35,181 nt of DNA. It comes from an uncultured Bacilli bacterium. GTDB taxonomy: Bacteria; Bacillota_I; Bacilli_A; RFN20; CAG-826. A program made the translations under genes and the position numbers. Under the pieces are notes generated by a model. That model saw only the letters and a list, made by a program, of their open reading frames with translations, was not told where the DNA came from and made no database searches. Positions within the stretch are counted from its first letter, which is position 1. Each line of letters starts with the position of its first letter. Positions 3,728 to 27,200 of this stretch are shown here, in pieces. The stretch lies in NCBI GenBank assembly GCA_905235705.1, contig CAJOML010000005.1:1-35181 (forward strand), written 5' to 3'.

Positions 3728-3729
3728 AA

Positions 3730-4484: not shown

Positions 4485-5072
4485 TTAGGCTAAATTTCCG
4501 GGAAACGGGTTTGCGATTTCGATGACTTCGACTTCGCCAAGGGGTTCTTTTGAGGCGACGACGATCATCGCATTGGCTAAGCCAACATGGCCATAATAAT
4601 AGGTTTCGTCCCGATAAAGGCATTTGCCTTCGCCTAAAGGCTCAATGGATTCGCTGGGATTAAAATTGCCTTTGCCCGAGGCTTTAAAGCAGGCTTCGTT
4701 TAAGCACCAATAGAAAGAAAGAGGCATGCTGGTTTTGATTTTCTTGAGCAATTCGCTTAATTGTCCGTTTTGAAGTCTCTCCGTCGTTTCCACGTCAACC
4801 CCGATTTCGGCGCCTTCGGAAACGGCTAAGGCAACATAGGGGTAAGAATGGGACAAACTAAAGGGCTTTTCGCCTTGAATCGATAATTTGCCGTTCTCAC
4901 TGACATCGAATTTACGCATCCCGACATATTTACGGATGAGGTAACGTCCCATTAAGAAGAGGTCTTTGTCTTCTTGACGCATATAACCTTCATATCGCTT
5001 GATCTCGGGATAAGAAAGGAAAGGGCCTTCATGAAGACAAAAGGTTTTGACATTGAGCAAATAGAGTTTCAT
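4485..5072 (-). CDS. Sfp-type 4'-phosphopantetheinyl transferase
   Basis: Proteins of this family move the phosphopantetheine arm of coenzyme A to a serine on carrier proteins. The 195-residue product has the family motifs in order: FSLSHS at 71-76, GVDVE at 91-95 (magnesium-binding Asp93 and Glu95), and W122-xxx-E126-A-xxx-K130 followed by ASGKG. It is a little shorter than Sfp (about 224). No carrier protein or synthase gene is in the window, so it could serve fatty-acid synthesis (in place of AcpS) or a distant secondary-metabolite cluster. There is no clear Shine-Dalgarno site; a promoter -10 box lies only 10 bases before the ATG. It lies 42 bases after the long operon and 80 bases before hypB. 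Confidence 0.88.
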   Translation of the reverse strand: MKLYLLNVKTFCLHEGPFLSYPEIKRYEGYMRQEDKDLFLMGRYLIRKYVGMRKFDVSENGKLSIQGEKPFSLSHSYPYVALAVSEGAEIGVDVETTERLQNGQLSELLKKIKTSMPLSFYWCLNEACFKASGKGNFNPSESIEPLGEGKCLYRDETYYYGHVGLANAMIVVASKEPLGEVEVIEIANPFPGNLA

Positions 5073-7494: not shown

Positions 7495-8462
7495 TGGCTT
7501 CTCCTTTTATTAAGAGCGAAGGCGCTACAAAGGGATAACAGGGCGACTAAAACCAAATACATCCCACCACACCATAATCGGGGAAACATCGTTAAACTAG
7601 GCAAGGCTAAAGCTAGGCCTAATATCGCCATCGGTAAGCCATAGCAGGCAAATAAATAGCCAAAGATAAGGGCAATTCCTTTTTCTCTTCCTTTGCCATA
7701 TAGGACAACCTGATTAGAGATAAAGCGGAGCACCTTTCTTTTTAAGAATACCCCAATGACGAAAGCCCCTAAGAGCAAGGCAAACGAAGCGATGGAATAA
7801 GCAAGTATCTTTCCTTTTTCAGAATCCGGATAAAGGGAATTCAAATAAGATTTCGTATAGACCTGACCAAAGACAGTGATATCCCCATATGAATCCACGT
7901 TGCCTGTAAAATTGAGGAAACGGGCCGTCCCGCTGCTTAAGATTTCTTGATATAGCTTTTCATCGAAGCCCATCACCATGATGCCTTTGGCGTTATCTAA
8001 GATCCCTTTTAGATAAGGCAAATAATGTCTTACCTCAAGCGTTCCTGCCCCGATGGAGCGGTGAAGTTTTGAGCCAAGAGTAATTTGACGGTCACGGGCA
8101 ATATTTTCGCTTAAATAGGCTTCCCCAAAAGAAGGCCGGATATCACCAAATAAAGAAAGACGATCATAGGTCGCATAATCCAAAACCATATACACGTTGG
8201 CCCCAAGCCCTTTATTGTCATCCCCAATATAATGGGTATAACCGGAGACGATGAGATAGACGTTTTTGATTTCCTTTGCCGCCGAGCGATAAGGCTGATC
8301 GGAAACGAAATAACGGTCAAAGCCGCTTTGGTTATATTGATGAAGTTGGGTATAAGATGAAGCGATATTAGGGAAGAAAGATAGGCTGCAAGTCAAGGAC
8401 GCGGCCAGACCTAAAAGAAGGCATAACCCGAAGTCGATGATTTTCGCGAATATGACCTTCAC
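7491..8462 (-). CDS. FtsX/MacB-like ABC permease subunit, 323 residues
   Basis: The architecture is that of FtsX/MacB permeases: one N-terminal membrane helix (about 8-28), a large extracytoplasmic domain (30-215), and three C-terminal helices (about 222-241, 262-282, 290-315). In the outer domain AYLSENIARDRQITLGSKL resembles the MacB periplasmic core. It starts with GTG at 8460-8462 behind GGAGGAAGGC. It follows the 480-residue permease by 13 bases and overlaps the ABC ATPase gene by four. The two permeases probably form a heterodimer with that ATPase. Such systems often do mechanical work on envelope proteins rather than classical transport. Sequence conservation looks weak, so the family call rests on topology and neighbours. 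Confidence 0.75.
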   Translation of the reverse strand: MKVIFAKIIDFGLCLLLGLAASLTCSLSFFPNIASSYTQLHQYNQSGFDRYFVSDQPYRSAAKEIKNVYLIVSGYTHYIGDDNKGLGANVYMVLDYATYDRLSLFGDIRPSFGEAYLSENIARDRQITLGSKLHRSIGAGTLEVRHYLPYLKGILDNAKGIMVMGFDEKLYQEILSSGTARFLNFTGNVDSYGDITVFGQVYTKSYLNSLYPDSEKGKILAYSIASFALLLGAFVIGVFLKRKVLRFISNQVVLYGKGREKGIALIFGYLFACYGLPMAILGLALALPSLTMFPRLWCGGMYLVLVALLSLCSAFALNKRRSQ

Positions 8463-8475: not shown

Positions 8476-9918
8476 TTAAAGATGATGGAAATGGGAATTC
8501 GCCCAATCCAAAGGGAACCACTGACCCCCGTCTTTTAGTTCTTTTGATTTGACGTAGACTAGCCTTCCGCTAAAGTCGGTGATTTGACCCATAATGGTTT
8601 GGCCACATAAATCAAAATAGACTTTTTGTTTCAGTTCCAATTTCGGTTTATTTTGTCCCAAAGGGGCTTCTTCCTTAGGAACCCCTTTTTCTTCCTGTCT
8701 TGGGACATTAATGATGGCAGGTGCCTCTTTCTTTTCGATTTTATCCATCGCCCCGAAAACCATATTGGCATAAACGAGCAATAAGGGGATGACGATAAAG
8801 GCACTGGCGAGGAATGGCAAAGAATAAACTAACCCAAATGTGCCAAAGCCGATTCCTTTGACCCCGCCATAAATCGCCCCAACGATATTGGGAATCGCTA
8901 GCGGCAAGGCAAGCGAGCATAAATAGAGGGAGAGATTATTGGTAATAAAGCCTGCTTTTGTCACCGCTCCAACCCCGTTTTTGATATTTTCTTCGTCTTT
9001 CCCTCGACCAAGGAAAATAAACAAGGAATATAGGATAGTGAAGGCACTAGGAATAAGAATCGCGAATAAAATCTGGCTTTGTTTTAATTCGTCGCTCCGT
9101 CCGATTAAGGATTCTTCCGCCTCTAAAAGATATTGCGATTTCAATTGCACGGCATTTACCCTTTTGGTCGATTCATATTGTTCGACATAAGCTTCATATT
9201 GGGTTTCGACGGCTTTCTCCCATTCTAGGTCGCTATTTCCGCTAGGACGGGATAAAGTCGCGGCGAAGGCCTCTTTCGAATAAAAACGCGAACGGGGAAT
9301 ATAATCCTTTAAATAATTCCCTAAGGCAGTGACGTCGCTAGCCTGAATAAAACTTAGGTCATATTTGGCTAAAGGAGTAGCGAAAGAGGATTCAATCTCC
9401 TCGCTTAGCTGGATTAAGGCGATGCCATTGTCTAAGCCGCGATAGGTCACCTCTTTATAGATGCCAGAGACATTATATTGATAAGTCTTTCCAGCTAGGA
9501 CCAAAGAGACTTGCTCACCAACATTAACGTTAAGTTTAGCGGCGGCTTTTTGATCTAACATGATGCCAGAAGTCGAACTCGTTCCACGAATCAGTCTTCC
9601 CGGAGCGAAGAAAGAAATCTCATAATTGGTCATCTCAGTTGCGGCAAATAGGCTAATGCCATCAACCCCAGAAGCGTCAGGGAAAGCATTGGCGAAATTC
9701 ATCACCGGAAATACCGAAGCGACAAACTCTTTGGCACTAAATTCTTCCACTTGAGCAGGGGAAGATTCGGTCACGAGATAATCGAATTTGGTTTGGGTGA
9801 AAGAAGAAGTCTCTTTTTCGATATCTTGGCTACGGTTTAATCCGGAAACCACCACATAGCTAGTAAATATTGCGGCAAGGAGGCCAAGTCCTAGACGAAT
9901 AAATGTAATCGGTCTCAT
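8476..9918 (-). CDS. FtsX/MacB-like ABC permease subunit with cytoplasmic C-terminal domain
   Basis: This 480-residue protein has a membrane helix at about 6-26, an extracytoplasmic domain (28-280), and three further helices at about 282-304, 330-350 and 360-390. Within the outer domain, GIMLDQKAAAKLNVNVGEQV matches the MacB-type core pattern. A helical stretch at 230-280 may form a stalk. Unlike its 323-residue partner it carries about 90 further residues after the last helix: a charged linker and a small beta-rich domain ending in GQWFPLDWANSHFHHL. That domain could contact cytoplasmic components such as the ABC ATPase or the coiled-coil proteins; this is inference. AAGGAGGAG precedes the start and the lipoprotein gene ends 12 bases upstream. 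Confidence 0.78.
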   Translation of the reverse strand: MRPITFIRLGLGLLAAIFTSYVVVSGLNRSQDIEKETSSFTQTKFDYLVTESSPAQVEEFSAKEFVASVFPVMNFANAFPDASGVDGISLFAATEMTNYEISFFAPGRLIRGTSSTSGIMLDQKAAAKLNVNVGEQVSLVLAGKTYQYNVSGIYKEVTYRGLDNGIALIQLSEEIESSFATPLAKYDLSFIQASDVTALGNYLKDYIPRSRFYSKEAFAATLSRPSGNSDLEWEKAVETQYEAYVEQYESTKRVNAVQLKSQYLLEAEESLIGRSDELKQSQILFAILIPSAFTILYSLFIFLGRGKDEENIKNGVGAVTKAGFITNNLSLYLCSLALPLAIPNIVGAIYGGVKGIGFGTFGLVYSLPFLASAFIVIPLLLVYANMVFGAMDKIEKKEAPAIINVPRQEEKGVPKEEAPLGQNKPKLELKQKVYFDLCGQTIMGQITDFSGRLVYVKSKELKDGGQWFPLDWANSHFHHL

Positions 9919-9930
9919 CTTTTCTCCTCC

Positions 9931-10818
9931 TTATAAAGCCGGGATGAAAATGGTCGTTGACGGGGCCGAGGTCAAATAATTGCTCGGCGTTTCCGAGAAT
10001 GCCCTAACGCGAACCGGAATCGAAGACCCCCTGATGCCAAAAGTAGACCAGGCACTGAAATATAAAGGCGAACCAGGCGAAGTCCCCTGGGGCGGGAGGA
10101 AATGATAATCTTCCCCATTTTCATCTAATAAGGGCGAATCCGAACTACCATAATAAATCTTGTAATAATCGGCATGTTCGATATGGCCCCAGCTGATTTG
10201 GGTGCCGCTACGGGAGACTTCGGGGGCGGCAAGTTGAATCGCGTGGATAGCGATATTGACGGTTTTACCCGCTTTGCCTTGACCGCTAGTCAAGACATCT
10301 TCACCGGTTGAGAAATTCAAGGTGAGGTTAGCCCCTTTTTCATCGACGTGGATTGGGGTGATACCAAAGACCATACGTTGTTTATAAACGTCGTCTTCCT
10401 CTTTCGGGATGGCGAAAGTGGAAGTGATGTATTTCTTCGGCGTGCCATCGCTATCGGTCACCGGGATTGGGGTTGGATCATCGCCGGAATCAACTTGCTG
10501 GACGCTAGCATCGAAGCAGGCGAATTGAGGGAATTTGGTAATCGTGGAAATCTTATGTTGCCCGTTGTTTTTGCTTTTTGATGTAATCGAGAATTCAAAG
10601 ACAAGATAATATTTCGAGGCGATAAAGAAATCCGTCATCGCTTCATCGTAGACCGAGAAATCGGTGCTTCCTTCGCCTTTTTCAATAAAGCCAGCTTTGA
10701 TCGATGAAAGTTCCACATCGACTTTTTCTTCATTCGAGAAATTGAGATAATCACAGGCGGAAAGAAGGCTTATTGAAGCAACAAGAGATATGGTTTTTGC
10801 AAGGTTTTTGATGTTCAT
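9931..10818 (-). CDS. Lipoprotein with C-terminal fibronectin III-like domain
   Basis: The 295-residue product begins with a signal peptide and a lipobox LSAC at 19-22, so Cys22 should be lipidated and the protein anchored on the outer face of the membrane. Residues about 35-195 form a beta-rich domain of unknown type. Residues about 200-295 resemble a fibronectin type III domain (ISWGHIEHADYYKIYYG). A very similar phrase, ILSWQPVEHASYFRLNLYKG, occurs in the neighbouring 624-residue protein, so the two share a domain type. It lies 14 bases after that gene and 12 before the permease gene. It may be the surface component of the permease complex; the ligand is unknown. Confidence 0.85.
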   Translation of the reverse strand: MNIKNLAKTISLVASISLLSACDYLNFSNEEKVDVELSSIKAGFIEKGEGSTDFSVYDEAMTDFFIASKYYLVFEFSITSKSKNNGQHKISTITKFPQFACFDASVQQVDSGDDPTPIPVTDSDGTPKKYITSTFAIPKEEDDVYKQRMVFGITPIHVDEKGANLTLNFSTGEDVLTSGQGKAGKTVNIAIHAIQLAAPEVSRSGTQISWGHIEHADYYKIYYGSSDSPLLDENGEDYHFLPPQGTSPGSPLYFSAWSTFGIRGSSIPVRVRAFSETPSNYLTSAPSTTIFIPAL

Positions 10819-10832
10819 TTATTTCTCCTTTC

Positions 10833-12707
10833 CTAATTGAATTTCGCCGTTGCGACGATCGGGGTTTGCAAGGTGAAGAGGCTTTCTTCCGGGGGGATCA
10901 TTTTCACCATGACCACCACTTCATCGGCAATTGCGTCACCACGATGATAGCCAAATTGATATGTTTCCATCTCCCCTTCATATCCCTCATATGGGGTTGG
11001 CCAAGGGTTCCAAGAAATCGAATCGATTTTACTATTCCCTTGGTAGAAATCGATTCTGACCTCGGCTTCTAAGATTTGCCTCTTTTCATCTTTAATTAAG
11101 GAATAGCCGCTTGTGTCGATGATATTTATGGTGAAATCTTTATCCGGGTTTTCAGACGATTTTGCGATGGAGATATCGTAAGAGGGGACAAGCAAATTTA
11201 AGCTGGCTTTGGAGGAAGGAAGAATATCGTTTCCGTTCCCCAAATTGATGGCTTCGATCCGGTGCAATCCGCCACTTAAAGAAGCGATGAAATTCTCGTC
11301 CATCGCATCGAAAGAAGATAGCTCGCCATCAACGTAAATCGTATGACCGACGGAGATATTTCTTTCATTAAGATTTACTCCATCAAAGTCAAATTCGGGG
11401 GTCGCAAGTCTAGTCAAGGTGATGATGTTGGATTTATCGGATTGAAGATGCCAAGACGCGCTAGGAAGAAGGCGGGCATAGACTTGATGCTCTCCCACAT
11501 CGGCTTGGCTCATTTGGCCATCCCAGGGCTTGTCATCTAAATATAAGGTGGGGTCATATGGGCCAATGGAAGAAGCGGAGATAACCCCGTTTTCGATGGA
11601 AATACCAGGCTTCCATAGCCGTGTCACCATCAATTCCTCGCTGATAGGGGAATCAAAACGATGGATTCCATCACCGACATTTTTGGCCGAGATCAGGTGG
11701 ACACCTTCTTCGTTAATGGAAGCGACTTGCCCATTAAATTCTTTGCCATCAAGGTAATATATGGGCGATTCGGCGTTATGGATATGAATCTGCTGATTCG
11801 AAATACTTAAACTAGGGGCGCTAAGGCGCGTGAAAGTATCGGTAAGGGGCTTCCCGAACGTGTAATTATTCGGCCCGTTTGGAATAAGCGTGACTTGATA
11901 ATCCCCAGGCAAAGAAAGGTCATAATGGTAACTCGTCTCGTTATTGATGATATGGGATTCTTCGTTGATTTTTAGGGTATAAGAAGAGACCCCTGGAATG
12001 CCAAGCCAATTAAAATTCTCCCCATCGTAAGAGAACTTCCCGATTTCTTGCAATTTGATTAAGCGGATTGCTTCCGAAGGCTCGGATGGACTAAATTTCG
12101 TATATCGACGAGGCGAGATTTCATCGCTGCAGGCGGTCACCGTAATGGCAAATTCGCCATGGTAATCGATTTGGCGAAGATCATATTTCAAAGCGGCCGA
12201 TGACACCTTGATCGGTTCGCCGAAACCCTCATCTAAATTCACCCCTTTATATAGATTCAAACGGAAATAAGAAGCATGTTCAACCGGTTGCCAAGATAAG
12301 ATGCCATCTTGGAAAGAAATTGAAGTTTCCGCTAGCTTTAAGGGACTAACATTGCAGGTCACTTTCCCTTTCCAATTTAAATAAGAAACGGTGAGGTTTT
12401 GTGAACCGAGTTCATTTCCATCAAAACCTTCGACCATAAGCGAATTCCCATCTAAGGTTTTCTTATCCCCATATCCATTTTCCAGATGGATTTTCCAAGA
12501 AGAGAAATCGGGAGTACCCAAATAGTTGATATCGATGGTATCGACAAAGCCTTCAACATCCACCACTTTATCTTTGGCCAGTCCTTTAAAAGTCGGAATC
12601 AAAATCGAGGCTGCAATGCCAGAAAAAAGCAAAATCACGCCAAGGGTAAAATAAGCCGTTGCCAAACGGGCACGATTAACCCCATATAAATGACGCCCCC
12701 TAGACAT
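10833..12707 (-). CDS. Single-pass surface protein with Ig-like and about 70-residue beta repeats
   Basis: This 624-residue protein has one membrane helix at about 17-38, with the rest probably outside the cell. Residues 50-120 look like a bacterial Ig-like domain (MVEGFDGNELGSQNLTVSYL). Residues about 125-215 and 218-292 look like fibronectin III-type domains. Three diverged repeats then begin with TRL at 293, 362 and 432, a period of about 70 residues, each containing a phrase like YLDGKEFNGQ. A last domain covers 505-624. There is no LPXTG motif or second membrane helix. Its start lies inside the end of the previous gene (8-base overlap), with AAGGAGGGAAAGCA before the ATG. It may act as an adhesive or scaffold partner of the permease and lipoprotein. 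Confidence 0.82.
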   Translation of the reverse strand: MSRGRHLYGVNRARLATAYFTLGVILLFSGIAASILIPTFKGLAKDKVVDVEGFVDTIDINYLGTPDFSSWKIHLENGYGDKKTLDGNSLMVEGFDGNELGSQNLTVSYLNWKGKVTCNVSPLKLAETSISFQDGILSWQPVEHASYFRLNLYKGVNLDEGFGEPIKVSSAALKYDLRQIDYHGEFAITVTACSDEISPRRYTKFSPSEPSEAIRLIKLQEIGKFSYDGENFNWLGIPGVSSYTLKINEESHIINNETSYHYDLSLPGDYQVTLIPNGPNNYTFGKPLTDTFTRLSAPSLSISNQQIHIHNAESPIYYLDGKEFNGQVASINEEGVHLISAKNVGDGIHRFDSPISEELMVTRLWKPGISIENGVISASSIGPYDPTLYLDDKPWDGQMSQADVGEHQVYARLLPSASWHLQSDKSNIITLTRLATPEFDFDGVNLNERNISVGHTIYVDGELSSFDAMDENFIASLSGGLHRIEAINLGNGNDILPSSKASLNLLVPSYDISIAKSSENPDKDFTINIIDTSGYSLIKDEKRQILEAEVRIDFYQGNSKIDSISWNPWPTPYEGYEGEMETYQFGYHRGDAIADEVVVMVKMIPPEESLFTLQTPIVATAKFN

Positions 12708-13371
12708 TGCTTTCCCTCCTTTTTAACCGATCATAACGATGCCCGATTCGCTTAATCGCGCGCGCACGAAATGGGTGAATCGATAGACGCCAAATCGGAA
12801 GCAACCTTTTGCTTAATTCATCATCCCCCAAAGTGAGGTCGATGAAATTAATATAATGGCCGTTGATGGTCAAGTTATTGCCATCGCCAACTTGGGTATC
12901 AAGGCAAGATTCCAGATAAAGGAAATAGTCCCAGCCTTCACGCCAGGATTGTTTTAACTTAGTCGAGATAAAGCGAGCTAAGATGCTATCGAAATCAGGG
13001 ATATATTCCTTACTTAAGATATCGATATGACGATATTTCGAACCCCAATATTTAAAAGGTATGCCACGTAAGATGCTTAGCAAATCACTAGGGTTTTTCA
13101 CCCTGCCATAATGGGCATAGGCGAACTCTGAAGTGGCATCATAATATTTCTCGACATATTCCTCTTTGAGGTCTTTTTTGAAATGGAGTTCGGCTTCAAT
13201 GACATTGCTTCTAATCGCGTCAAAGAAGTCTTCTAGGTCTTTCCCTTCAAGCCTTAAATAGATGGAGGGAGAGACGAAATAGACATACCGATTCACCTTA
13301 TTTTCATCGATTCCTCCATGCAGAAAATCCCGCAAAAAGTCAATCGATGCATCGAATTTTGTTTTACTCAT
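12700..13371 (-). CDS. Unrecognised cytoplasmic protein, 223 residues
   Basis: I cannot assign a family. The protein has no signal peptide or membrane helix. It is rich in aromatic and charged residues, for example LEDFFDAIRSN, EYVEKYYDATSEFAYAHYG and SWREGWDYFLYLES, and ends in the basic run RIGHRYDRLKRRESNV. It looks like a compact mixed helix-strand domain. AAAGGAG precedes the start. It lies 15 bases after the 271-residue helical protein and overlaps the Ig-like protein gene by eight bases. It therefore joins the cytoplasmic half of the operon to the envelope half, and an adaptor role is possible, but that is only a guess from position. Confidence 0.75.
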   Translation of the reverse strand: MSKTKFDASIDFLRDFLHGGIDENKVNRYVYFVSPSIYLRLEGKDLEDFFDAIRSNVIEAELHFKKDLKEEYVEKYYDATSEFAYAHYGRVKNPSDLLSILRGIPFKYWGSKYRHIDILSKEYIPDFDSILARFISTKLKQSWREGWDYFLYLESCLDTQVGDGNNLTINGHYINFIDLTLGDDELSKRLLPIWRLSIHPFRARAIKRIGHRYDRLKRRESNV

Positions 13372-13386: not shown

Positions 13387-14202
13387 TTATTGCCTTTTGC
13401 GAAAAGGCTTCTCTTCTTCCTCTTTTTCCGCGGCTTTCTTTTCCATCATGTCGACAAGGTCAGGATGGTCGAGGAAGACATCTTCGCCGCCAAGAAACGA
13501 CTTCTTTCCAAAGCGGGCATCGGTAGAAGCGAATTGGGCTTTGGTTTTTTCATATATCCGGCGTTCAACTTCTTCTTCAATTGCCGCTTGCTGATAGGAA
13601 ATATGATCAACCCCAGTTGCCTTTCCCATTTCGCTATGGACTTTGGCATAGCGTTGCCTTTGTTTAACAATGGAAGAAGACACATCAAAGTCAACATAGT
13701 CCTGGAGGATTTCGGCTTCGCTATCTAATTGACGCTTAATGTTTTTATATTCGCCGGATAAGACGATGACGCGAGGATCTTTTGGTCCGTATTCGGAAAT
13801 ATATTCCACTAATGTCGCTGAGATTTCGGCTTCTTTCTTGGTTAAGGATAATATCTTCCCGGAGATGGAATTGATGGAGGCTTTTGCCTGGTTGATTTCC
13901 CTCATGGGGGTAGCGGAAACGACGTCTTCGATTTGCCCGAATAATTCAGAGAGCAAATAATCGTTTTCAGGGCTTAGGTTAGCATCTATCTTGGCGAAAA
14001 TATCAAGGATGAGATGGTAATCTTTTTCTTTTAAATCTCCCCCTGCGATTAAGGCTTTGCTAGCTTTGGAAATGGCAATGCCAACATTGCTTTCATCACT
14101 TAAATAGGGGTAATCCCTTGTGGATTGGCGATAAGAAGAAAGGCGTTCGAAAACAAGGGTTTTGGCTTCATTTGAATCATATTTCTTTTTCATTCCAAGC
14201 AT
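13387..14202 (-). CDS. Helical coiled-coil protein, possible third ESCRT-III-like subunit
   Basis: This 271-residue protein is almost entirely helical. Residues about 102-136 and 142-172 could form a long hairpin of the kind seen in ESCRT-III cores (INSISGKILSLTKKEAEIS, then VLSGEYKNIKRQLDSEAEIL), followed by helices at about 175-225 and a charged tail ending in EEEEKPFRKRQ. The N-terminal 90 residues form a separate helical region. No MIM1-type ending is visible, so the resemblance to Snf7 proteins is weaker than for the two coiled-coil proteins upstream. GGAGGAAAAGCG precedes the ATG at 14202; a second ATG lies at 14191-14193. It lies 12 bases after the SPFH gene. It could equally be an unrelated coiled-coil scaffold. 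Confidence 0.75.
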   Translation of the reverse strand: MLGMKKKYDSNEAKTLVFERLSSYRQSTRDYPYLSDESNVGIAISKASKALIAGGDLKEKDYHLILDIFAKIDANLSPENDYLLSELFGQIEDVVSATPMREINQAKASINSISGKILSLTKKEAEISATLVEYISEYGPKDPRVIVLSGEYKNIKRQLDSEAEILQDYVDFDVSSSIVKQRQRYAKVHSEMGKATGVDHISYQQAAIEEEVERRIYEKTKAQFASTDARFGKKSFLGGEDVFLDHPDLVDMMEKKAAEKEEEEKPFRKRQ

Positions 14203-14214: not shown

Positions 14215-14904
14215 TTAATCGAATTGGGATAAATCAAACTCTTTGATCTTCCCCGAAACTTCGTCTTCCTCTTCTAGCCGCACCGAGACTTCTTCGACTT
14301 TTAACCCAAAGGAAGAAAGCTCGCGGTTAGCTAACATCGTGACTTCGCGATTAATCGCGGCCACATTTTCATATGCCCCCGATAACCCTTTCTTGCTTAA
14401 GGTTTTCGCCCCTACTTCGGTCATCACATCCGTCAAAGCCTTTTCCACCATCGGACGGAAATAAGAGGCGGGGAGGGAAGATTGGTTATAGCCGCGATAT
14501 GAGGCCATCGTTTGCAATAATTCAGGGGTGAAAACCGGGTCAAAGCAAAAGGCCGCATTAGCCCTTAAGAAATATTTTACGCGCCTAACATTGATATCTT
14601 TAGCCGGAAAAGGAAAATTGGTGGAAGCTTTTACCCCAAATGAACCAGAAGAGAAATAAATGACTTCATATTCATTTTTATCAAGTCCGACGTTTCTAAA
14701 TAGACCGCCCTTTCTATTGATGATTTTCTTTTGCCCGCTTAGAAGAGGGAGGGAGGGCTTTTCCCCAACCTTGGAAATCAAAGCAAAGCCGTTGCTTGGG
14801 GCAAGAAGAAGGGAGTTAAAAGGCAGGTTGATATAACGGACTTTAAAGATAGCACGGTCTTCACCAAAACCCCGATCAAATCGAATCATTAACGGTTTTC
14901 CCAT
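14215..14904 (-). CDS. SPFH (band 7)-domain protein, YdjI-like
   Basis: The 229-residue product resembles the short, soluble SPFH proteins typified by Bacillus YdjI. The early part holds NSLLLAPSNGFALISKVGE, the usual beta-strand start of this group. Next come a GLFRNVGL turn and VIYFSSGSFGVKAS, then the helical part with PMVEKALTDVMTEVGAKTLS and INREVTMLANRELSSFGLKV, the characteristic repeated end of an SPFH domain. There is no N-terminal membrane helix, so it would bind the membrane or a partner from the cytoplasm. In Bacillus, YdjI is encoded with PspA, itself a member of the ESCRT-III superfamily. That makes its place beside ESCRT-III-like genes meaningful. It probably marks or organises the membrane site where the coiled-coil polymers form. 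Confidence 0.8.
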   Translation of the reverse strand: MGKPLMIRFDRGFGEDRAIFKVRYINLPFNSLLLAPSNGFALISKVGEKPSLPLLSGQKKIINRKGGLFRNVGLDKNEYEVIYFSSGSFGVKASTNFPFPAKDINVRRVKYFLRANAAFCFDPVFTPELLQTMASYRGYNQSSLPASYFRPMVEKALTDVMTEVGAKTLSKKGLSGAYENVAAINREVTMLANRELSSFGLKVEEVSVRLEEEDEVSGKIKEFDLSQFD

Positions 14905-14915
14905 TTCCTTTCCTC

Positions 14916-16124
14916 CTATTTGTTGCTGGAGGTATATCGACGAAGTTTTTCGATATCCTCTTTGCGAATCGAAGAACGGACTTTCTTTCCTTCTTCCTCA
15001 ACATCATTATCGCTGATTTTGGCCTTGGGGTCTTTACTAGAGAAAGCCGGGGCCGAAATCTTATCGATAAAAGCGTTGATATCACGTCCATTGAAGCCTT
15101 CTGTCATCTTGACCATCTTTTGATAATCCAAGCCGTTAGCGCCAGGCATTCCTTCAAAGCCATGACGAAGCATAAATTCGCGGGCCTTAGCATCAGGAAG
15201 CCCGATTTCGATGCGGTCAGAGAAACGGTTAAGCATCGCCCCATCGATATTCCAAGGGCAATTCGTCGCCGCTAGAAGAAGGATGCGGTGAGAAGGATCA
15301 TCGTCTAGTCCATTGATGCATTGCAGCAATGTGTTAATCCCGTTATAAGCCGATCCAACCATCCCCCTAGCTAAGGCAAGGTCATCAAATTCATCAAAGA
15401 AAATGACGCTTAATTTATATTTCCTAGCAGCGGTAAATAAGTTCTCGATATTTTTCTCGGTTTCCCCTACATATGAGCCTTTGATAGAGCTGGCCTTGGC
15501 ATAGAAGAAGGGGGCGCCAAGTTCGCTTGCGACGGCTTTGGCAAACATCGTTTTGCCAGTGCCAGGAAGTCCATAAAGCAAGATTCCTCCACCGCTTAGG
15601 CGTTTGAATTTTTTCGCTTTCTCCATGTCCTTAAAAGGAAGGATGGCTTTCTCGTTAAGGATCCGTTTGGCTTCATCTAATCCGGCGATATCGTCTAGTT
15701 TTACGTTGAGACCTTTTAATGGCTCCCACTGGGTTAGCCGATCATTGCTTTTCATCGAGCTCGAGGAAGATTTGTCATCCTCTTTCTCGTCTTCTTTTGA
15801 AGTGGATTTTGCCGCTGAATTCCTTTTAGAATAGCCTGTTTTTGCAGAGAAAATTGGGTTTTTAGATGATATCAATTTCAAATTATCATTTTCCCTGTTT
15901 TGCTTAAAGGAAGCATAGGTGAAAGCTTTCTCTTTTAACACCTCTGCATTGTCCACATAATACGAAGCAAGGTTAGGGTCATCACATTCTAAAGCGGCTA
16001 AATGCATGCGTTCGGAGGCATCGAGGAACCGTCTTGAGGCGGTTGCATATTCTTTTCTCCGCAAGGCCGAATTGGCTGCTTCGATGTAGATCTTGGCTTG
16101 GTTTTCATTGCGGTTTTGATTCAT
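14916..16124 (-). CDS. MIT-domain AAA ATPase of the Vps4/spastin clade, second copy
   Basis: From the ATG at 16124 the product has 402 residues. Residues about 8-68 form a three-helix MIT-like domain (KIYIEAANSALRRKEY, then AEVLKEKA). A low-complexity Ser/Lys/Glu linker follows (about 75-130), then one AAA module: Walker A GLPGTGKT (185-192), pore loop SYVGE (217-221), Walker B FFDEF (242-246), sensor Asn288 in AATNCPW, arginines at 300 and 304, and TEGFNGRDI (341-349). The end, VRSSIRKEDIEKLRRY, resembles the C-terminal helix of Vps4. This clade disassembles ESCRT-III polymers (Vps4) or severs microtubules (spastin, katanin). GGAGGCCAAG just before 16124 decides this start over the ATG at 16154, which overlaps the previous gene. 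It directly follows the 228-residue coiled-coil gene. Confidence 0.88.
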   Translation of the reverse strand: MNQNRNENQAKIYIEAANSALRRKEYATASRRFLDASERMHLAALECDDPNLASYYVDNAEVLKEKAFTYASFKQNRENDNLKLISSKNPIFSAKTGYSKRNSAAKSTSKEDEKEDDKSSSSSMKSNDRLTQWEPLKGLNVKLDDIAGLDEAKRILNEKAILPFKDMEKAKKFKRLSGGGILLYGLPGTGKTMFAKAVASELGAPFFYAKASSIKGSYVGETEKNIENLFTAARKYKLSVIFFDEFDDLALARGMVGSAYNGINTLLQCINGLDDDPSHRILLLAATNCPWNIDGAMLNRFSDRIEIGLPDAKAREFMLRHGFEGMPGANGLDYQKMVKMTEGFNGRDINAFIDKISAPAFSSKDPKAKISDNDVEEEGKKVRSSIRKEDIEKLRRYTSSNK

Positions 16125-16140
16125 CTTGGCCTCCTTTCTT

Positions 16141-16827
16141 TTAATTATCTTCACTAAGGCGTTTTTCTAAGTTTTCGCGAATCTTTTCATAATCCTCTGT
16201 AAAGGTTTTATTTTCTTTCTCGGTTTCCACTCCCATACGGGCTCTAGCGATAATCTCATCAGCGTCTTCATCGGGATATGGAACGCGGATATCCTTTGCT
16301 TCTTGGTGGGCTTCTTCTAGCTCATTCATTTTCCTTTGATAAGTTTCGTCGACGAGATTCTCTTCCCGCATGTTATCAACGGACTGATTTAGGCTTTCTT
16401 CATAAACGGCGTTGACCTCGGCTTTGCTTGCTTTGGGTGCGGCGTTACGTTCTTGCTCTTTGATAGCGGAGACGATTTGATTCTCAAATTCGGCGATGGC
16501 CTGGTCTTCATTCCTGACGCGAACGATCGCTTTTGCCTTTTCATAGGAACGTTGCAAGCGCTCAAGATGTTGCTTGGCATAGTGGTAATGACGCTTGGCC
16601 TCATCGATATCGCGTTCGGTCCCTTTGTTTGCGGCCTTGACTAATTCTTCCCTGGCTTTGTTAAATTCTTCTTTTGCCAAATCGAGGTTAATTTCCTGCT
16701 TGATCAAGCCGCCTTGGATATCCTTCTCGGCTTTGCGATAAGCCTGTTGACGTTGTTCTTCTAGCAAAAGCTCAGCTTCACGACTGGCTTTGGCTTGTTC
16801 CTCTTTTTTCTTTTTGTTCCAGAACAT
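16141..16827 (-). CDS. ESCRT-III-like coiled-coil protein with partial MIM1-like C-terminus
   Basis: This 228-residue protein is highly charged and helical, opening with MFWNKKKKEEQ, a basic, aromatic-containing start like that of Snf7/CHMP4 proteins. Residues about 14-66 and 70-103 can form a long antiparallel hairpin, followed by shorter helices (105-127, 134-178) and an acidic tail. The end, EKIRENLEKRLSEDN, holds L220-x-x-R223-L224, the core of the MIM1 motif bound by MIT domains, although the final leucine of the motif is replaced by Asp227. It has no membrane helix or signal peptide. AAGGAGGT precedes the start. It lies between the two MIT-AAA genes, 12 and 16 bases away. I infer a filament-forming partner of those ATPases; a generic coiled-coil protein is the alternative. 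Confidence 0.78.
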   Translation of the reverse strand: MFWNKKKKEEQAKASREAELLLEEQRQQAYRKAEKDIQGGLIKQEINLDLAKEEFNKAREELVKAANKGTERDIDEAKRHYHYAKQHLERLQRSYEKAKAIVRVRNEDQAIAEFENQIVSAIKEQERNAAPKASKAEVNAVYEESLNQSVDNMREENLVDETYQRKMNELEEAHQEAKDIRVPYPDEDADEIIARARMGVETEKENKTFTEDYEKIRENLEKRLSEDN

Positions 16828-16839
16828 GGGTTTACCTCC

Positions 16840-17979
16840 TTATGGGTTTTCGTTTTGGTATTTGGCGAGGAGTTCTAGGTCTTTCTTTACGACCGAAGAA
16901 TGAATCTTGTCTTCTAATGAAACGACATCCTCATTGGTGATTTGGCTTGGCGTTCCCGTTTTTAATTCGCGTTTGATGGCCGGGTCTTTGACTTTGAAAC
17001 AAAGTCCAGTGACATCGGCCCCGTTGAAACCTTCTGACATCGTTACTAGTTTTTCTTTGTCGAAGTCAGGGGAAAGGGGAGCGCCTTCAAGTTGCTTGTT
17101 GATGATATGGCGCCTTGCTTTTTCATCCGGAAGAGGGACATAGACGCGGTCATCGAAACGTCCCGTCCGCATGAAGGCCGAATCGATGTCCCAAGGACGA
17201 TTGGTCGCGGCGATGATCATAAGGGTGCTCTTTTCATCGCCGAAGCCATTGATTTCGGCAAGTAATTGAGGGACCACTCTTTTCATCACCGTCGACATGG
17301 TGGACCGACTTGTCCCTAGCGATTCGAATTCATCGAAGAAGATAACCGCATATGGATATTGCCTGGCGGCCTTGAATAGGCCATGGATCTTTTGCTCAGC
17401 TTCGCCAAACCACTTGGAGACGATGTCTGAGCATTTGATGGAGAAGAAGGGGCAATCTAATTCACTTGCCACCGCCTTTGCAAACATCGTTTTTCCGGTC
17501 CCTGGGGCGCCATAGAGGAGGAGCCCGCCTCCCGCCTTACGTCCATAACGTTTGTAAACCTCAGGGTGCTTTTGTGGGGCGATGATTAGGGTTTGGATTT
17601 TTTCCTTAGCCTCATCTAGCCCAGCGATATCGGAGAATCTAACACCCGTATTGGTGACGGGGATGAAGTCGGAGGAATAATCTTCCTTTTCTTCGTTACC
17701 GCCATTTTTCTTCGCTTTGGCCAAGTCTTCAGAAGCGGAACGAGGTTTGTCGATCCTATCTTCGGTCGGGACTTGCTCGAGCAAGGCATAGAGGTCATTT
17801 GCCTGTTTTAGACGGGATTGACGCAAGACCCCATCGCTAAGTTTGGCAAGCTCAAACATGGTTTTGGTAGCTAAGGCGATGTTGCGTCTAGCATCGACGT
17901 TTCTCCCCTGCTTCAAGGCGGAAATGCCGGCTTGCTGATATTTTTCAAAGCTTGTGAGTAAGAAACGTTGATCGGTCAT
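16840..17979 (-). CDS. MIT-domain AAA ATPase of the Vps4 clade, first copy
   Basis: This 379-residue protein starts with a three-helix MIT-like domain (about 8-70), then a charged linker (75-105) and one AAA module. Visible parts are Walker A GAPGTGKT (157-164), the Vps4-type pore loop SKWFGEAEQK (188-197), Walker B FFDEF (214-218), sensor Asn260 in AATNRPWD, the RTGRFD arginine region (271-276), PLPDEKAR and MSEGFNGADVTGL. The end, VVSLEDKIHSSVVKKDLELL, has the form of the Vps4 C-terminal helix. Order, lengths and motifs match Vps4/CdvC more closely than FtsH, Cdc48 or MoxR proteins. In ESCRT systems such enzymes pull ESCRT-III subunits out of filaments. It begins one base after the 215-residue ESCRT-III-like gene, so the two are probably made together. 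Confidence 0.9.
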   Translation of the reverse strand: MTDQRFLLTSFEKYQQAGISALKQGRNVDARRNIALATKTMFELAKLSDGVLRQSRLKQANDLYALLEQVPTEDRIDKPRSASEDLAKAKKNGGNEEKEDYSSDFIPVTNTGVRFSDIAGLDEAKEKIQTLIIAPQKHPEVYKRYGRKAGGGLLLYGAPGTGKTMFAKAVASELDCPFFSIKCSDIVSKWFGEAEQKIHGLFKAARQYPYAVIFFDEFESLGTSRSTMSTVMKRVVPQLLAEINGFGDEKSTLMIIAATNRPWDIDSAFMRTGRFDDRVYVPLPDEKARRHIINKQLEGAPLSPDFDKEKLVTMSEGFNGADVTGLCFKVKDPAIKRELKTGTPSQITNEDVVSLEDKIHSSVVKKDLELLAKYQNENP

Positions 17980-17980
17980 G

Positions 17981-18628
17981 CTATTCTCCTTTGATGGCTT
18001 TATTTAATTCGGCGATCTTCGCGTCGATGTTTTCCCCGATCTCCTTATCGACCACCACATCATCTGCGGCTTGGTTGGAGATGAGCATATCGAGCTCTTT
18101 ATCCGATATTCCCGAATCGCCGACATCCAGGCTTTCCAGTCCTCCCGTCGCCGCTTCCATAAAGGCATTTAAGGCGGAGAGTTGGGCGGATGAATTCATC
18201 GATGCGAGATTGAATTCTTCGGTTGCTTTTTGGAAGTCCGCAATTGAGGTTGTGTTCTTCATTTGATTGGCAATGGTCGAGACCCCTTTGACGAACTCAT
18301 CGACCATCCCATTCATTTCATTGGTATCCAGTGCCATTTCGAATTGAAGGGTCATCCTCTCCAAGATTCGTTGGCGGGAAAGGGTGAGTTTATATTGGGT
18401 CTTGCATAGCTCTAAGGCAGTCTTGTCGCCGGTTTTGTAGGCTTCTTTGGCTTTGCTTAGATATTTCTCCGAACTAGAGGCGATGCGATCACATTGCTGA
18501 TGCATTTTCTTTAAGGTTGCTTTGCAAGCCATCCGTTCTTGGAATTCGCGGTTCTTCCGTTCGATCTCAAGGACGCGTTGCCTTTCTGCGGCTTCCGCTT
18601 CTAAACGTGCTTTCTTTTTCTTAGTCAT
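17981..18628 (-). CDS. ESCRT-III (Snf7/CHMP)-like protein with MIM1-type C-terminus
   Basis: The 215-residue product follows the ESCRT-III layout: a basic N-terminus (MTKKKKARLEAEAAERQRVL), a helix at about 35-66, a second long helix (69-100), a third (102-123), a fourth (127-162), then an acidic linker and a short last helix. SIADFQKATEEFNLASMN (128-145) resembles the helix of CHMP1/CHMP2 proteins before the autoinhibitory tail. SDKELDMLI (175-183) resembles their acidic tail. The end, GENIDAKIAELNKAI, places I201, K204, I205 and L208 at the spacing of MIM1 (L-xx-RL-xx-L), the peptide bound by MIT domains. The only difference at the acidic position is Gly198, with Glu199 beside it. AAAGGAG precedes the start. 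The call rests on pattern and context, not on a profile search. Confidence 0.8.
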   Translation of the reverse strand: MTKKKKARLEAEAAERQRVLEIERKNREFQERMACKATLKKMHQQCDRIASSSEKYLSKAKEAYKTGDKTALELCKTQYKLTLSRQRILERMTLQFEMALDTNEMNGMVDEFVKGVSTIANQMKNTTSIADFQKATEEFNLASMNSSAQLSALNAFMEAATGGLESLDVGDSGISDKELDMLISNQAADDVVVDKEIGENIDAKIAELNKAIKGE

Positions 18629-18640
18629 CGCCAGGCTCCT

Positions 18641-18781
18641 TTAAAGTAGTTGGTTGTCATCGAAGAAATCTTCGCGTTTTTCTTTCTTAGGTTTTTTCAC
18701 CCCGAAAGCCAAGGCTTCGATGTAGTTATCGAGATATTCCTCGTTGATGCGATCTTTCTTTGCTATTTTTTTCTTTTTCAT
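18641..18781 (-). CDS. 46-residue charged microprotein
   Basis: A short frame starts at the ATG 18779-18781 behind a strong GGAGGA site and ends with TAA at 18641-18643; that stop runs into the AAAGGAG of the next gene. The product opens with MKKKKIAKKDRINEEYLDNY, has a central AFGVKKPKKEKR and closes with EDFFDDNQLL, so both basic and acidic residues are dense. No membrane helix or known domain is visible. Good ribosome site, 18-base and 12-base gaps and the absence of any alternative explanation for this stretch support a real gene. Its place beside the ESCRT-III-like gene suggests a regulator, adaptor or membrane-targeting peptide of that system. Confidence 0.7.
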   Translation of the reverse strand: MKKKKIAKKDRINEEYLDNYIEALAFGVKKPKKEKREDFFDDNQLL

Positions 18782-18799
18782 GGCGTAAATCCTCCTGCC

Positions 18800-19312
18800 T
18801 TAGATTTTGAAATTAAGGGTGCTCATCATCTTTCCGATAATGACCGATTCGTTTAATGGGGCTTTGAATTTTTCAAGCGTTGCGATGGCTTCAGGATCGA
18901 CATTGAATTGACCCATATCAACGATGAGAACAAAGGTGGTCAAAGCGACGAAAACTAGACCTACCCCGAAAACCAGTCCATCGATCAATCCAAGGAGATG
19001 GCTGCGGCTCGTAAAGCCAACGGTGAGCAATCGCCTAACAAGAGAGATGAGACCATAGGCGACAATGGAAACTGAGATCAAAATTACCCAGAAAACTATG
19101 TTTGTCGAACCGAGGTTTCCGGCAAAGCTATTCAGCCAATTCCAGAAGTCTGAATTGACGATTGCTTTAAGCGAGGCGACGGCGGTAATTCCACCGACTG
19201 CAAGGGCTAGGGATAAGGTCCCTAAGAAGAAGTGCTTCCCAGTCTTTACGATGGCAAACAGGACAGGGAATCCGATGACGATTCCGATGATGATCCAATC
19301 AATGTAGTTCAT
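18800..19312 (-). CDS. CvpA-like integral membrane protein, first gene of the operon
   Basis: The 170-residue product has four hydrophobic helices at about 4-22, 28-46, 72-92 and 105-131 and an amphipathic tail. The opening MNYIDWIIIGIVIGFPVLFA and the segment LLGLIDGLVFGVGLVF match the CvpA (colicin V production) pattern of a short first helix and a conserved Gly-rich last pair. A longer reading from 19336 is possible, but AAAGGA lies within it, seven bases before the ATG at 19312, so the shorter start is preferred. CvpA proteins are linked to envelope homeostasis, with the molecular role unclear. Here it probably gives the cytoplasmic ESCRT-like proteins a membrane anchor. Confidence 0.75.
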   Translation of the reverse strand: MNYIDWIIIGIVIGFPVLFAIVKTGKHFFLGTLSLALAVGGITAVASLKAIVNSDFWNWLNSFAGNLGSTNIVFWVILISVSIVAYGLISLVRRLLTVGFTSRSHLLGLIDGLVFGVGLVFVALTTFVLIVDMGQFNVDPEAIATLEKFKAPLNESVIIGKMMSTLNFKI

Positions 19313-24288: not shown

Positions 24289-27200
24289 TTAAATCTCTTT
24301 TATGGTCGCGTTTAATAGGCTTAATAGATATGTCTTCACTTTGGACTGATCCACGCCGAAGATAGAGACTACATTTTCTTTATAAATATTTAACTGATTG
24401 ATATACGCCTCGTCATCGATATTTTCGGTCTTGTAATCGATGATTGAATAGATGCCGTCTTTGACCATCAGCAAATCGATGAAACCGTAATTTTGCCTAG
24501 AGGAATCAAAATAGGCATACTCGCTATAAAGGGTGGTCCCATCTAAACGAGAGAATATAGGTAAGGCAAGGACTTTATCGACGATAGCCCTATCTTTGGG
24601 ATTTACGATATAGGAAGTGTCCTTTGTATTAAAGTCCAGAAGTTCCATCAAACGATGCAAATAAGTACCATAAGCCATCTTGGCTTTCGTATCTTCGTCT
24701 AAATCCACGGGCGAAGATTTTGAGGCTCTAGCATGAACCCTAACTTCAAAAGGAATCTCTTCCTCGTTAATCGTCACTTCGTCTATTTTGGCTACCCCTT
24801 TAGCTTTGTTTTCCCCTTCTAAGGAGACATCCATTACAATCGCGTTATCTTTAAAGGAAGAGGAATCATAAACATTCCGTAAGACATAGTCATAATCACC
24901 AAATGCTTTGGCAAGGGAATTAAGGATTTTAAGTTTGTCTTTAAGCTTGCCTTTGTCAGCAAAAATTTTGTTTTTATTGCTGCAATCCTCAATTAAAAGA
25001 TTAGAAATTTCAGTTTTTGCTGCATTGTCATCAAGATGATTTTTCGCGCCAATAAAAGCCACCAAATCATTAAACCCATTGATGGGGGTAGATGGGTAAT
25101 TGTCTTTGGCATAGACTTTTGCCATCAAATCGAAATCCATCGTTTTACCGTTTCCGATTTTGCCTAAGAAATAACCGTCGAGAGCCCCAACAATATGATT
25201 AAGGTAGCTATCGCGCATTTCGATGATGCGTCCTTCATAATATTTTTTCGCCCAATCTAGATAAAGGCGATAGTCTTCATCGTGATCAAAATCATCTCGC
25301 CCTAAAGGAAGTTTGAGATTTTGATAAAGTTCACTATATTCGAGATATTTTCGATATTCCTCTTTGTCTAAGACACCGGCCTTTTCCATGTTGTCGACGA
25401 ACTTTGAATTCATTTCCGTGAAATGAGGCAAAGAATCATAAATGGAATAGACGCTTTCTTTCTTCTTCCCAGGTCTAGGCCCAACGATATAGAAAATATT
25501 TTCCGCCCTGGTGAAGGCAACGTAGAAAAGACGAACATGCTCATCGACATCAAAATCCCGTTTGCCCATTTGTCCGCGGTAAAGAAGGGCTGGCAAATTA
25601 TCTCTGCTTCTTTCTTGATAAAGGTCGACTTTATAGTCAGGAAGCAAGATGCCGAAGTCTTCCGAGAAAATATAATCGGGCTTACCCATGTTGTTGCCGC
25701 TAGAAAGGCCACTTTGGGAAGCGGGGAGATAAACGATTTTCCGTTCTAACCCTTTCGAGGCATGGATACTCATCAGGTCAACCGCGTTCTCCACGGAAAT
25801 CTCGGTTTTCGCTTTCATCGAGAGGTTGTAGTTTTTGACTTTTTTGAAGATATCGACGAATTCATTTAGTCCTTCGCCTGCGCTTTCCATCGATAAAACA
25901 AGTTGATAGGCAGCCTCGATTTTGGCCACGTTATCGGCGACCAATCCTAAATGAGGGAGTTTTTCCACCACTCCGTATTTCTCGATTAAGGCAATGAAGA
26001 TTTCCTTTAATGCCTTGCCTTTGTTAGCCTCTGAAAACTCTTTTAAGGAGACTAAGATGGGGTCTTGCAATAACGTCTCTAGCTTAGCTTCTTTATCATC
26101 GTTTTCTTCTAAATAAAGAAGGTCGTGGATATGTTGGTCTTTATGTTCTTCGTCGCGGAATAAATAACTTCTCGCTAGCGAGGCATAAATATGGCGGATG
26201 GTTTCAGGGATTCCGCCGAAGGTAAACCACTTCACCGCGGCAAGCAAAGATTGGAGGGCGATGATGGCATCAAATTCGGCAAGAGAAGCCTCAGTGGAGA
26301 CATTCAGAGGGATATCGACTTCGTTGAAACGTTTTTGAATCTTTAAGAAAGATGATTTTGTCCTCGTCAAGATAACGAAATCACTATATTTGCATGGACG
26401 GATATGGGGATTTGAACCGCGGTCATAGACCTTAAATTTGCTTTCGACCTTGGTTTGGATATCTTTGATGATGGCTTCGATTTCCCAATCCGCATAATTT
26501 CCTAGAGGAAGATATTCGTCTAAAGAAGGAAGGATCCTAGCCACCCCGAAGTCTTCATAAGGTTCGCCATAAAGATTTACCTTGGGATCATATTGGAGTT
26601 CTTCCTCTTGAAGGGTGTAATCAATGGAGCCATGTTCTAGACTCATATAATGGAAGAAGAGGTAATTGATATCATCCAATAGCTTTGCCCCTGAACGATA
26701 ATTCTTGTTCATGGCAATGACGCGCTGGCCCAAATCGGCTTGGCGTTTACGGAAAAGCTCGACATTCGAATTACGAAAGGCATAGATGGATTGTTTCGCA
26801 TCCCCAACGCAGAAAAGATATGCACGTTCCCCTTCTTTATTCGGTTTAATCAAGGCGTTGATGAATTCTTCTTGGAAGTCGTTTGTGTCTTGATATTCAT
26901 CCACCATGATATATTTGAAACGATGACGAAGCTCTTCCGCGATATCGGCGAATTGTTCTTCGGTAAGTAGACGCAAGGCAAGTGCTCCGATATCGGAGAA
27001 AGTGAAGCGATTGGTGGCTTTCTTATATTCGTCTAGACGGCGATTCATCTCTTCGATGATTTCAAAATAGATGGCGATATCATCTTTGAATGATAGTACT
27101 TTTTCTTCGACCTCTTCGTAAGTCGAGGGGAAGACAACGGCTTCTTTTTTGAGTTCGGTAAAGGCATTGAATAGGATTTTATAACTTGCCGCGCCGATGC

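Follow-up and report, generated by a model that had tools for sequence, protein, structure and literature searches.

The operon described here, from an uncultured Bacilli bacterium, likely encodes a bacterial ESCRT-III/Vps4 module, a Vps4-driven machine that may serve in membrane stress or defence. ESCRT-III and Vps4, which cut and mend membranes, are known from archaea and eukaryotes, and the available literature describes bacteria as lacking the pair. By computation, one gene of the operon, CC1, is an ESCRT-III-like protein; its neighbour AAA1 is an ATPase of the Vps4 clade with a MIT fold, and the pairing of the two genes recurs across bacterial phyla.

Operon organization

The window, the whole 35,181-nucleotide stretch of DNA that was analysed, contains 15 co-directional genes running from 19312 to 5115 on the minus strand. 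Intergenic gaps range from -8 to 16 bases, save one of 171 bases that contains a possible 46-codon reading frame, and a strong ribosome-binding site precedes most of the genes. All cluster reading frames named in a preliminary description of this DNA were recovered at the same coordinates and on the minus strand, and each AAA gene has a helical, charged gene immediately upstream. The host is a bacterium with a small genome. The features are as follows.

18800..19312, minus strand: first operon gene, four hydrophobic (probable transmembrane) stretches (sequence, Pfam)
18641..18781, minus strand: possible small lysine-rich gene, 46 codons, filling the 171-base gap (sequence reading)
17981..18628, minus strand: CC1, ESCRT-III-like helical protein, 215 aa, without a transmembrane stretch (profile and fold ranking)
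18005..18037, minus strand: MIM1-like C-terminal motif of CC1, GENIDAKIAEL, proposed MIT docking site (motif count against shuffles)
16840..17979, minus strand: AAA1, MIT-AAA ATPase of the Vps4/CdvC clade, 379 aa (Pfam, tree)
17758..17979, minus strand: three-helix MIT domain formed by residues 1-74 of AAA1 (profile, AF2, Foldseek)
17488..17511, minus strand: Walker A of AAA1, GAPGTGKT (sequence; invariant alignment columns)
17401..17418, minus strand: pore loop 1 of AAA1, SKWFGE, Vps4 type (sequence; invariant alignment columns)
16141..16827, minus strand: CC2', 228-aa charged helical protein encoded just upstream of AAA2 (profile comparison)
14916..16124, minus strand: AAA2, second, divergent MIT-AAA ATPase, 402 aa, pore loop GSYVGE (Pfam, profile, tree)
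15900..16124, minus strand: MIT-like N-terminal region of AAA2 (profile against the family)
14215..14904, minus strand: divergent SPFH/Band 7-like protein (PF01145 E 0.0086, below cut-off; profile P 1.4e-4)
13387..14202, minus strand: helical operon protein without a family match (Pfam, NCBIfam, profile comparison)
12700-13371, minus strand: operon protein of unknown kind (within the 8476..13371 stretch)
10833-12707, minus strand: large protein with one transmembrane stretch, same operon (sequence)
9931-10818, minus strand: probable lipoprotein, same operon (sequence)
8476-9918, minus strand: MacB-like membrane protein, same operon (PF12704 E 1.4e-4, below cut-off)
7491-8462, minus strand: membrane protein near the operon end (sequence)
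6601-7494, minus strand: ABC ATPase, operon end (domain search)
5849-6601, minus strand: trypsin-like protease with a cysteine-rich (CPKC..CPFC) N-terminus (PF13365 E 5e-23)
5115-5849, minus strand: last operon gene, membrane protein (sequence)

Two flanking assignments in the preliminary description fared differently. The SPFH label stands weakly: the protein matches a profile of SPFH genes from related loci, but its Pfam score misses the cut-off. Since the product of 18800-19312 has no Pfam family at E <=1, the CvpA-like label is unsupported.

AAA1 groups with archaeal CdvC/Vps4 and carries a MIT domain

AAA1 and AAA2 each contain one AAA domain of the classical kind, complete with Walker A and Walker B motifs (PF00004, E 2e-40 and 5e-33 for the two proteins). 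In a careful tree, sampled without eukaryotic katanin and spastin, the bacterial AAA proteins and archaeal CdvC/Vps4 form one clade (support 100/99), as the preliminary description had anticipated. The bacterial clade is itself supported at 100/95 and is distinct from the archaeal one, and Cdc48, PAN and FtsH fall outside the joint clade. Three control rows of this tree duplicated sequences already in the bacterial clade and were later dropped; a quick tree recovers the same groupings with support of 98 and 95. AAA1 also bears the expected Vps4-type pore loop (SKWFGE), together with N..PWDID and PLPD motifs. The Vps4 C-terminal helix family PF09336 gives a weak match on AAA2 only (E 0.13); a C-terminal motif was recognized by eye.

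MIT-like N-termini, claimed for both ATPases, hold up on fold for AAA1 and on profile for AAA2. The predicted three-helix domain of AAA1 (AlphaFold core pLDDT ~97) retrieves archaeal Vps4 MIT domains as its top three Foldseek matches (probability 1.00), with Z scores of 12.2 and 11.8 over 74 residues, and its MIT profile score of 48.4 compares with 24.7 and 26.7 for decoys. For AAA2, the N-terminus matches the family profile at P 2.1e-4, against 0.47 for a reversed decoy. An assignment of AAA1 to the anti-phage ATPase of IetAS is not supported: it scores 125.5 bits, far under the curated IetA cut-off of 510.

The pair recurs across phyla with varying neighbours

The pair of CC1 and a MIT-AAA gene recurs in several bacterial phyla. 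The CC1 profile has matches in 11 of the 392 genomes from this bacterium's own phylum and in 54 of the 294 Planctomycetota genomes sampled, and related loci also occur in Chloroflexota. Eighteen Planctomycetota loci, found through the CC1 profile alone, were opened, and a MIT-AAA gene was present in every one (18/18); with loci chosen in this way, the pairing is not attributable to chance. Closer to home, two of the five congeners listed carry CC1, and most close relatives lack it. Most Bacillota loci have an SPFH gene upstream. A plasmid search returned no full-length relative, the regions opened carrying FtsH or Cdc48, and AAA matches in a viral-contig scan were mostly partial.

The neighbours raise the possibility of a role in defence: the ESCRT-like machine would detect membrane damage by phage or toxin and then kill or signal through effectors. 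TIR genes accompany L035, L036, L068, L071, L136, L137 and L139, a trypsin-like protease lies near the pair in the window, L066 and L068, L082 has a caspase gene and L035 has BrxL. The rare and patchy presence of the loci and the weak IetA match of the ATPase also fit. However, that match falls far under its cut-off, and such effectors give way to kinase, phosphatase or VWA genes in loci of Planctomycetota, Chloroflexota and some Bacilli. We regard defence tentatively, at somewhat below even probability. Defence would describe what the machine may be used for and does not compete with the reading of what it is.

CC1 is ESCRT-III-like

Several independent tests, among them profile comparison with decoys and fold ranking, bear out the ESCRT-III likeness proposed for CC1. 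The CC1 profile scores 40.0 against archaeal ESCRT-III, compared with 12.4 for reversed decoys, at most 21.1 among 40 block-shuffled decoys, and 19.5 for CC1 against PspA. CC1 is collinear with two Asgard (Thorarchaeota) ESCRT-III proteins over 165 columns (P 4.7e-5), and its best PDB sequence match is CdvB (E 0.016). The AF2 model predicts helices at residues 3-66, 69-123, 129-166 and 176-214, and members of the ESCRT-III superfamily make up 21 of its top 38 Foldseek rows; the best E-value is 0.098, with no match at 0.001 or better. Leading PDB matches are CdvB, CdvB2, PspA, CHMP2A-CHMP3 and Asgard ESCRT-IIIB, none significant alone.

Pfam and NCBIfam give nothing usable for either coiled-coil protein; on CC1, Pfam finds no Snf7 (PF03357) match at E <=1. 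Sulfolobus ESCRT-III likewise falls below the PF03357 cut-off. CC1 was also considered as a PspA/Vipp1 protein and rejected, having no PF04012 match and a profile nearer to archaeal ESCRT-III.

A MIM1-like C-terminal helix occurs in 14 of 22 CC1 homologues, against 1.9 expected from shuffles, by a loose pattern that was chosen after inspecting the sequences and in which the canonical arginine is usually replaced. That arginine is missing from most rows of the homologue alignment, and the tails are absent from the Planctomycetota rows and some others.

Alternatively, the ESCRT appearance might be convergent: CC1 would then be a long-helix adaptor of other origin, and AAA1 an unfoldase derived from Cdc48/Vps4 that acts on soluble or membrane substrates. 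Spurious similarity is common among helical proteins, the Foldseek E-values of CC1 are not significant, and in VIA the arms of seryl-tRNA synthetase rank, like further coiled coils, beside CHMP2A, with Z scores for CC1 at the level of generic helical proteins and so without discrimination; CC2' shows no ESCRT signal either. Against this stand the margin over both kinds of decoy, the Asgard collinearity, the MIM1-like tails and the Vps4-clade MIT-AAA gene near CC1 in every Planctomycetota locus opened, and we consider convergence unlikely. The outcomes that the preliminary description had named as counting against it, a missing ESCRT-III signal or an ATPase grouping with FtsH or Cdc48 and lacking a MIT fold, are absent for the CC1-AAA1 pair.

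A Snf7/CHMP-like gene had been proposed before each ATPase; this is supported for CC1 and not for CC2', which, from a single sequence, scores at decoy level against ESCRT-III, CC1 and CC2 profiles. Iterated Hmmsearch with profile comparison found no relative for 16141-16827 or 13387-14202. The CC2 proteins of related loci match CC1 at 27.5 (reversed 15.8), a signal too weak for us to claim a second ESCRT-III. AAA2 is a divergent second ATPase that probably has its own helical partner.

Proposed mechanism and relation to known systems

We propose that CC1 would polymerize along the cytoplasmic side of the cell membrane, with the SPFH protein as its probable recruiter or scaffold. AAA1, as a putative Vps4-type hexamer, would grip the MIM1-like helix at the CC1 end through its MIT domain, and its W-containing pore loop may draw CC1 subunits from the polymer, so that the filament would be remodelled using ATP. 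The machine would likely serve to sense, seal or reshape stressed or attacked membrane, with nearby genes as candidate outputs or regulators: the trypsin-like protease and ABC transporter here, and TIR, caspase, kinase or phosphatase elsewhere. Because these neighbours vary, a single function is unsure.

Cdv is the division machine of Sulfolobus, and the resemblance to CdvB and CdvC invites a role in replacing or assisting FtsZ. With an FtsZ fragment at the end of another stretch of assembled DNA in this genome, CC1 missing from most close relatives, and stress, effector or transport genes as neighbours, we find this very improbable. Archaeal or eukaryotic contamination, although ESCRT-III/Vps4 is known from those domains, can be dismissed almost entirely, given that the bacterial AAA proteins form a clade of their own beside the archaeal one, that relatives occur in numerous bacterial genomes, some of them on long contigs (for example 727,794 bases), and that the neighbours, as first described, and the relatives are bacterial, with none of the contig's other genes archaeal.

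The bacterial module shares with archaeal Vps4/CdvC and ESCRT-III/CdvB the MIT-AAA clade, the adjacent ESCRT-III-like gene and putative MIM-like tails. It differs in its bacterial host, its separate ATPase clade, the Cdc48-length RTGRF motif that AAA1 retains, and the TIR, trypsin-like or caspase genes that adjoin bacterial loci; no CdvA or winged-helix protein was recognized in those loci. Asgard and eukaryotic systems share the collinear match (Thorarchaeota) and the MIT fold, but CC1 is too divergent for the Pfam Snf7 model, and an unsystematic look revealed no ESCRT-I/II or ubiquitin parts. Bacillus PspA/Vipp1 is linked to the SPFH protein YdjI, a likeness in that both cases would join a bacterial ESCRT-III superfamily member to an SPFH protein; CC1 differs in its family match and profile, and a PspA (PF04012) search of this draft genome found none.

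There is an even chance, in our view, that a two-part ESCRT of filament and dedicated MIT-Vps4 motor is widespread in Bacillota, Planctomycetota and Chloroflexota, where SPFH proteins would act as scaffolds and effectors (TIR, trypsin-like, caspase, kinase) could be swapped, and that it senses membrane damage and decides between repair and killing. Such a spread would mean that the ESCRT pair is not confined to archaea and eukaryotes, altering the view of when motor and filament first became partners, or of how their partnership spread. It would also give ATP-driven remodelling of ESCRT-III a bacterial model and connect ESCRT machinery to bacterial immune-type effectors. Planctomycetota, in nearly a fifth of whose sampled genomes the ESCRT-III-like gene was found, are known for unusual membranes.

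Within the open-access full-text literature, preprints being outside the scope, we found no earlier report of the bacterial pair. In archaea, Meth_adaptin loci encode an SPFH zinc-ribbon protein, and kinases and phosphatases occur in other groups (PMC10936438); PspA has no known Vps4 partner (PMC7615534). The nearest published precedent is the observation, for some PspA/Snf7 genes of bacteria, of AAA+ and ABC-transporter genes nearby (PMC11237479). The same study describes a bacterial VPS4-like AAA in which snf7 is displaced by an unrelated TPR/6TM gene (PMC11237479), whereas here the ESCRT-III-like gene is retained beside the ATPase.

Results

The open reading frames that the preliminary description placed at 14215-19312 are present on the minus strand. 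They belong to one co-directional operon of fifteen genes, running from 19312 down to 5115 with gaps of -8 to 16 bases and a strong ribosome-binding site before most genes; the sole larger gap (171 bases) holds a possible 46-codon ORF. An ABC ATPase gene and a gene for a MacB-like membrane protein also belong to it. The source genome is a 1.26 Mb draft, 77% complete, of which the window is one entire contig (35,181 bases). The genes central to our analysis are:

17981-18628, minus strand, CC1, ESCRT-III-like helical protein
16840-17979, minus strand, AAA1, MIT-AAA ATPase
16141-16827, minus strand, helical protein, upstream of AAA2
14916-16124, minus strand, AAA2, MIT-AAA ATPase
14215-14904, minus strand, candidate SPFH protein

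Both ATPases are confirmed by matches to PF00004 (AAA1, E 2e-40; AAA2, E 5e-33). Archaeal CdvC is the top NCBIfam model for AAA2; AAA1 aligns with CdvC over nearly its full length, but CDC48 outscores it. A carefully built tree from the AAA domains unites the bacterial family with archaeal CdvC/Vps4 (support 100/99) and gives the bacterial family its own clade (100/95); Cdc48 D1 and D2, PAN, and FtsH fall outside the joint group. Three rows labelled 'other bacterial' in this tree are identical to Planctomycetota family members, which affects the labels and not the grouping. A quick tree of an earlier sequence set recovered the same two groupings (support 98 and 95). AAA1 carries the pore loop 1 SKWFGE as well as N..PW.ID and PLPD motifs, all typical of Vps4-like ATPases. 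AAA2 belongs to the same MIT-AAA family, as a long branch next to AAA1 with the pore loop GSYVGE.

The proposed MIT-like N-termini are borne out for AAA1 by predicted fold and profile, and for AAA2 by profile. Residues 1-95 of AAA1 form three helices in an AF2 model from a 24-sequence alignment (pLDDT ~97 across residues 11-70), and the top three PDB matches are archaeal Vps4 MIT chains (probability 1.00), with weak Foldseek E values (best 0.022). VIA-align gave Z 12.2 and 11.8 (74/75 residues), where helical bundles can give Z 13 by chance; many eukaryotic MIT domains rank next in its list. Independently of fold, MIT profile comparison scored 48.4; the reversed decoys scored 24.7 and 26.7. 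The AAA2 N-terminus matched the family profile at P 2.1e-4 (reversed profile, 0.47).

CC1 has no usable Pfam match; Sulfolobus, too, falls below the Snf7 cut-off. Profile comparisons were based on an alignment of twenty-three homologues. Each ATPase had been described as encoded behind a Snf7-like gene, and this stands for CC1 and AAA1: the CC1 profile scored 40.0 (P 5.7e-5) against 17 archaeal ESCRT-III proteins, with reversed profiles at 12.4 and block-shuffled decoys (n=40) reaching at most 21.1. It is not supported for 16141-16827, whose product showed no relationship to ESCRT-III, CC1, or CC2 (the gene beside CC1 in related loci) by profile comparison, leaving the second pair half supported, through family membership of AAA2 only. 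A collinear match of 165 columns, which takes in the C-terminal motif, links CC1 to two Asgard (Thorarchaeota) proteins (P 4.7e-5). By sequence, CC1 seems nearer to the archaeal ESCRT-III branch, because archaeal ESCRT-III and a PspA profile (four sequences), accepted relatives, reach only decoy level in the same test. In a search of PDB sequences with the CC1 profile, the top hit was CdvB (E 0.016), with CdvB2 in third place (E 0.05). The AF2 model (pLDDT 78.7) has helices at 3-66, 69-123, 129-166, and 176-214; CdvB, CdvB2, PspA, Vipp1, CHMP2A-CHMP3, IST1-CHMP1B, or Asgard ESCRT-III fill 21 of the 38 top Foldseek rows (best E 0.098), and VIA-align gave no discrimination on this model. A loose MIM1-like pattern, the proposed docking site for the AAA1 MIT domain, occurs in 14 of 22 CC1 tails (1.9 expected by shuffling), an optimistic test because the pattern was defined after the tails were inspected; it occurs in 0 of 3 Planctomycetota tails tested.

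Among the flanking genes, the SPFH assignment at 14215-14904 keeps one profile match and a sub-threshold Pfam hit only, and a CvpA-like gene is unsupported.

Related loci in other bacteria

Twelve Bacillota loci carry, complete or slightly varied, the order SPFH - (small genes) - CC2 - CC1 - MIT-AAA (L032, L033, L035, L036, L055, L056, L058, L060, L067, L068, L136, L137); the SPFH genes of L032 and L035 combine a Band_7_1 match with zinc ribbons. CC1 profile matches occur in 11 of 392 genomes of the window's phylum and 54 of 294 Planctomycetota genomes. A MIT-AAA gene is present in all 18 Planctomycetota loci opened, one copy being cut by a contig end. Many of these loci carry two: a first type near the window's (pore loop mostly KWVGE or KWVGD) and a second (mostly KYFGE) that groups with CdvC and Asgard Vps4 in a further quick tree (support 90) and may be nearer archaeal Vps4. 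Such ATPase pairs around ESCRT-III-like genes are thus a recurrent design, although AAA2 of the window does not belong to the second type. The ATPase occurs in Chloroflexota too, with CC1 in L061; in a Roseomonas genome, it is accompanied by helical genes and one with a caspase domain.

Individual loci show further arrangements. In the Planctomycetota loci L273, L275, L276, L279, and L284-L287, the two ATPase types (pore loops mostly KYFGE and KWVGE) lie around an ESCRT-III-like gene. A KYFGE-type single-AAA protein with a MIT-like N-terminus in L204 (Chloroflexota, Anaerolineae) groups with the Planctomycetota second type. L139:9171-11042 encodes 623 residues with a CC1-like N-terminal part; a second CC1-like gene adjoins it in tandem, and TIR/leucine-rich-repeat proteins follow. 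In L037:8270-10045 and L038:6847-8658, an AAA1-clade domain ends a ~600-residue protein whose N-terminus differs from that of AAA1 and looks membrane-bound.

Discussion

Archaeal ESCRT loci include SPFH zinc-ribbon proteins, kinases, and phosphatases (PMC10936438). Vps4-like genes have been transferred into several bacteria, with snf7 displaced there, and certain bacterial PspA or Snf7 genes adjoin AAA+ and transporter genes (PMC11237479, 2024); the portion of a 2025 review treating bacterial ESCRT-III-like proteins mentions no bacterial Vps4 (PMC7618577). Our literature search brought up no earlier account of an ESCRT-III/Vps4 operon in bacteria; as preprints were outside its scope, priority is not certain.

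From the protein families involved, we infer that MIT-MIM docking may operate in the module, that filaments may form, and that their remodelling may be driven by ATP. We favour a role in membrane stress or defence over division, based on neighbours, patchy presence, an FtsZ fragment, and the lack of PspA matches. TIR proteins accompany the module in seven loci (L035, L036, L068, L071, L136, L137, L139), and trypsin-like proteases in the window (5849-6601), L066, and L068. L032 has kinase, PP2C, and VWA genes, with a kinase also in L059 and L064; a caspase gene lies in L082 and BrxL in L035. Within the genus, profile search found CC1 in the window's own genome and G466 and not in G017, G044, or G371. 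The FtsZ fragment, at a contig end of the source genome, argues against the module replacing FtsZ. PspA had no match in the source draft; among 40 other genomes from the same order, none gave a match above cut-off.

Other genes of the window

The protease at 5849-6601, at the operon end, has a cysteine-rich (zinc-ribbon-like) N-terminus; those similar to it in L066 and L068 lie downstream of MIT-AAA. Also in the operon, 10833-12707 encodes a one-TM protein of 624 residues, possibly an extracellular sensor or cargo, for which Pfam gave no match. At 492-4623, HypA-like and HypB/CobW-like nickel maturation genes adjoin a large iron-sulphur flavoprotein gene, and 24289-30598 probably encodes a helicase-nuclease pair of the AddA/AddB type, whose second protein matches PF12705 (E 8e-20).
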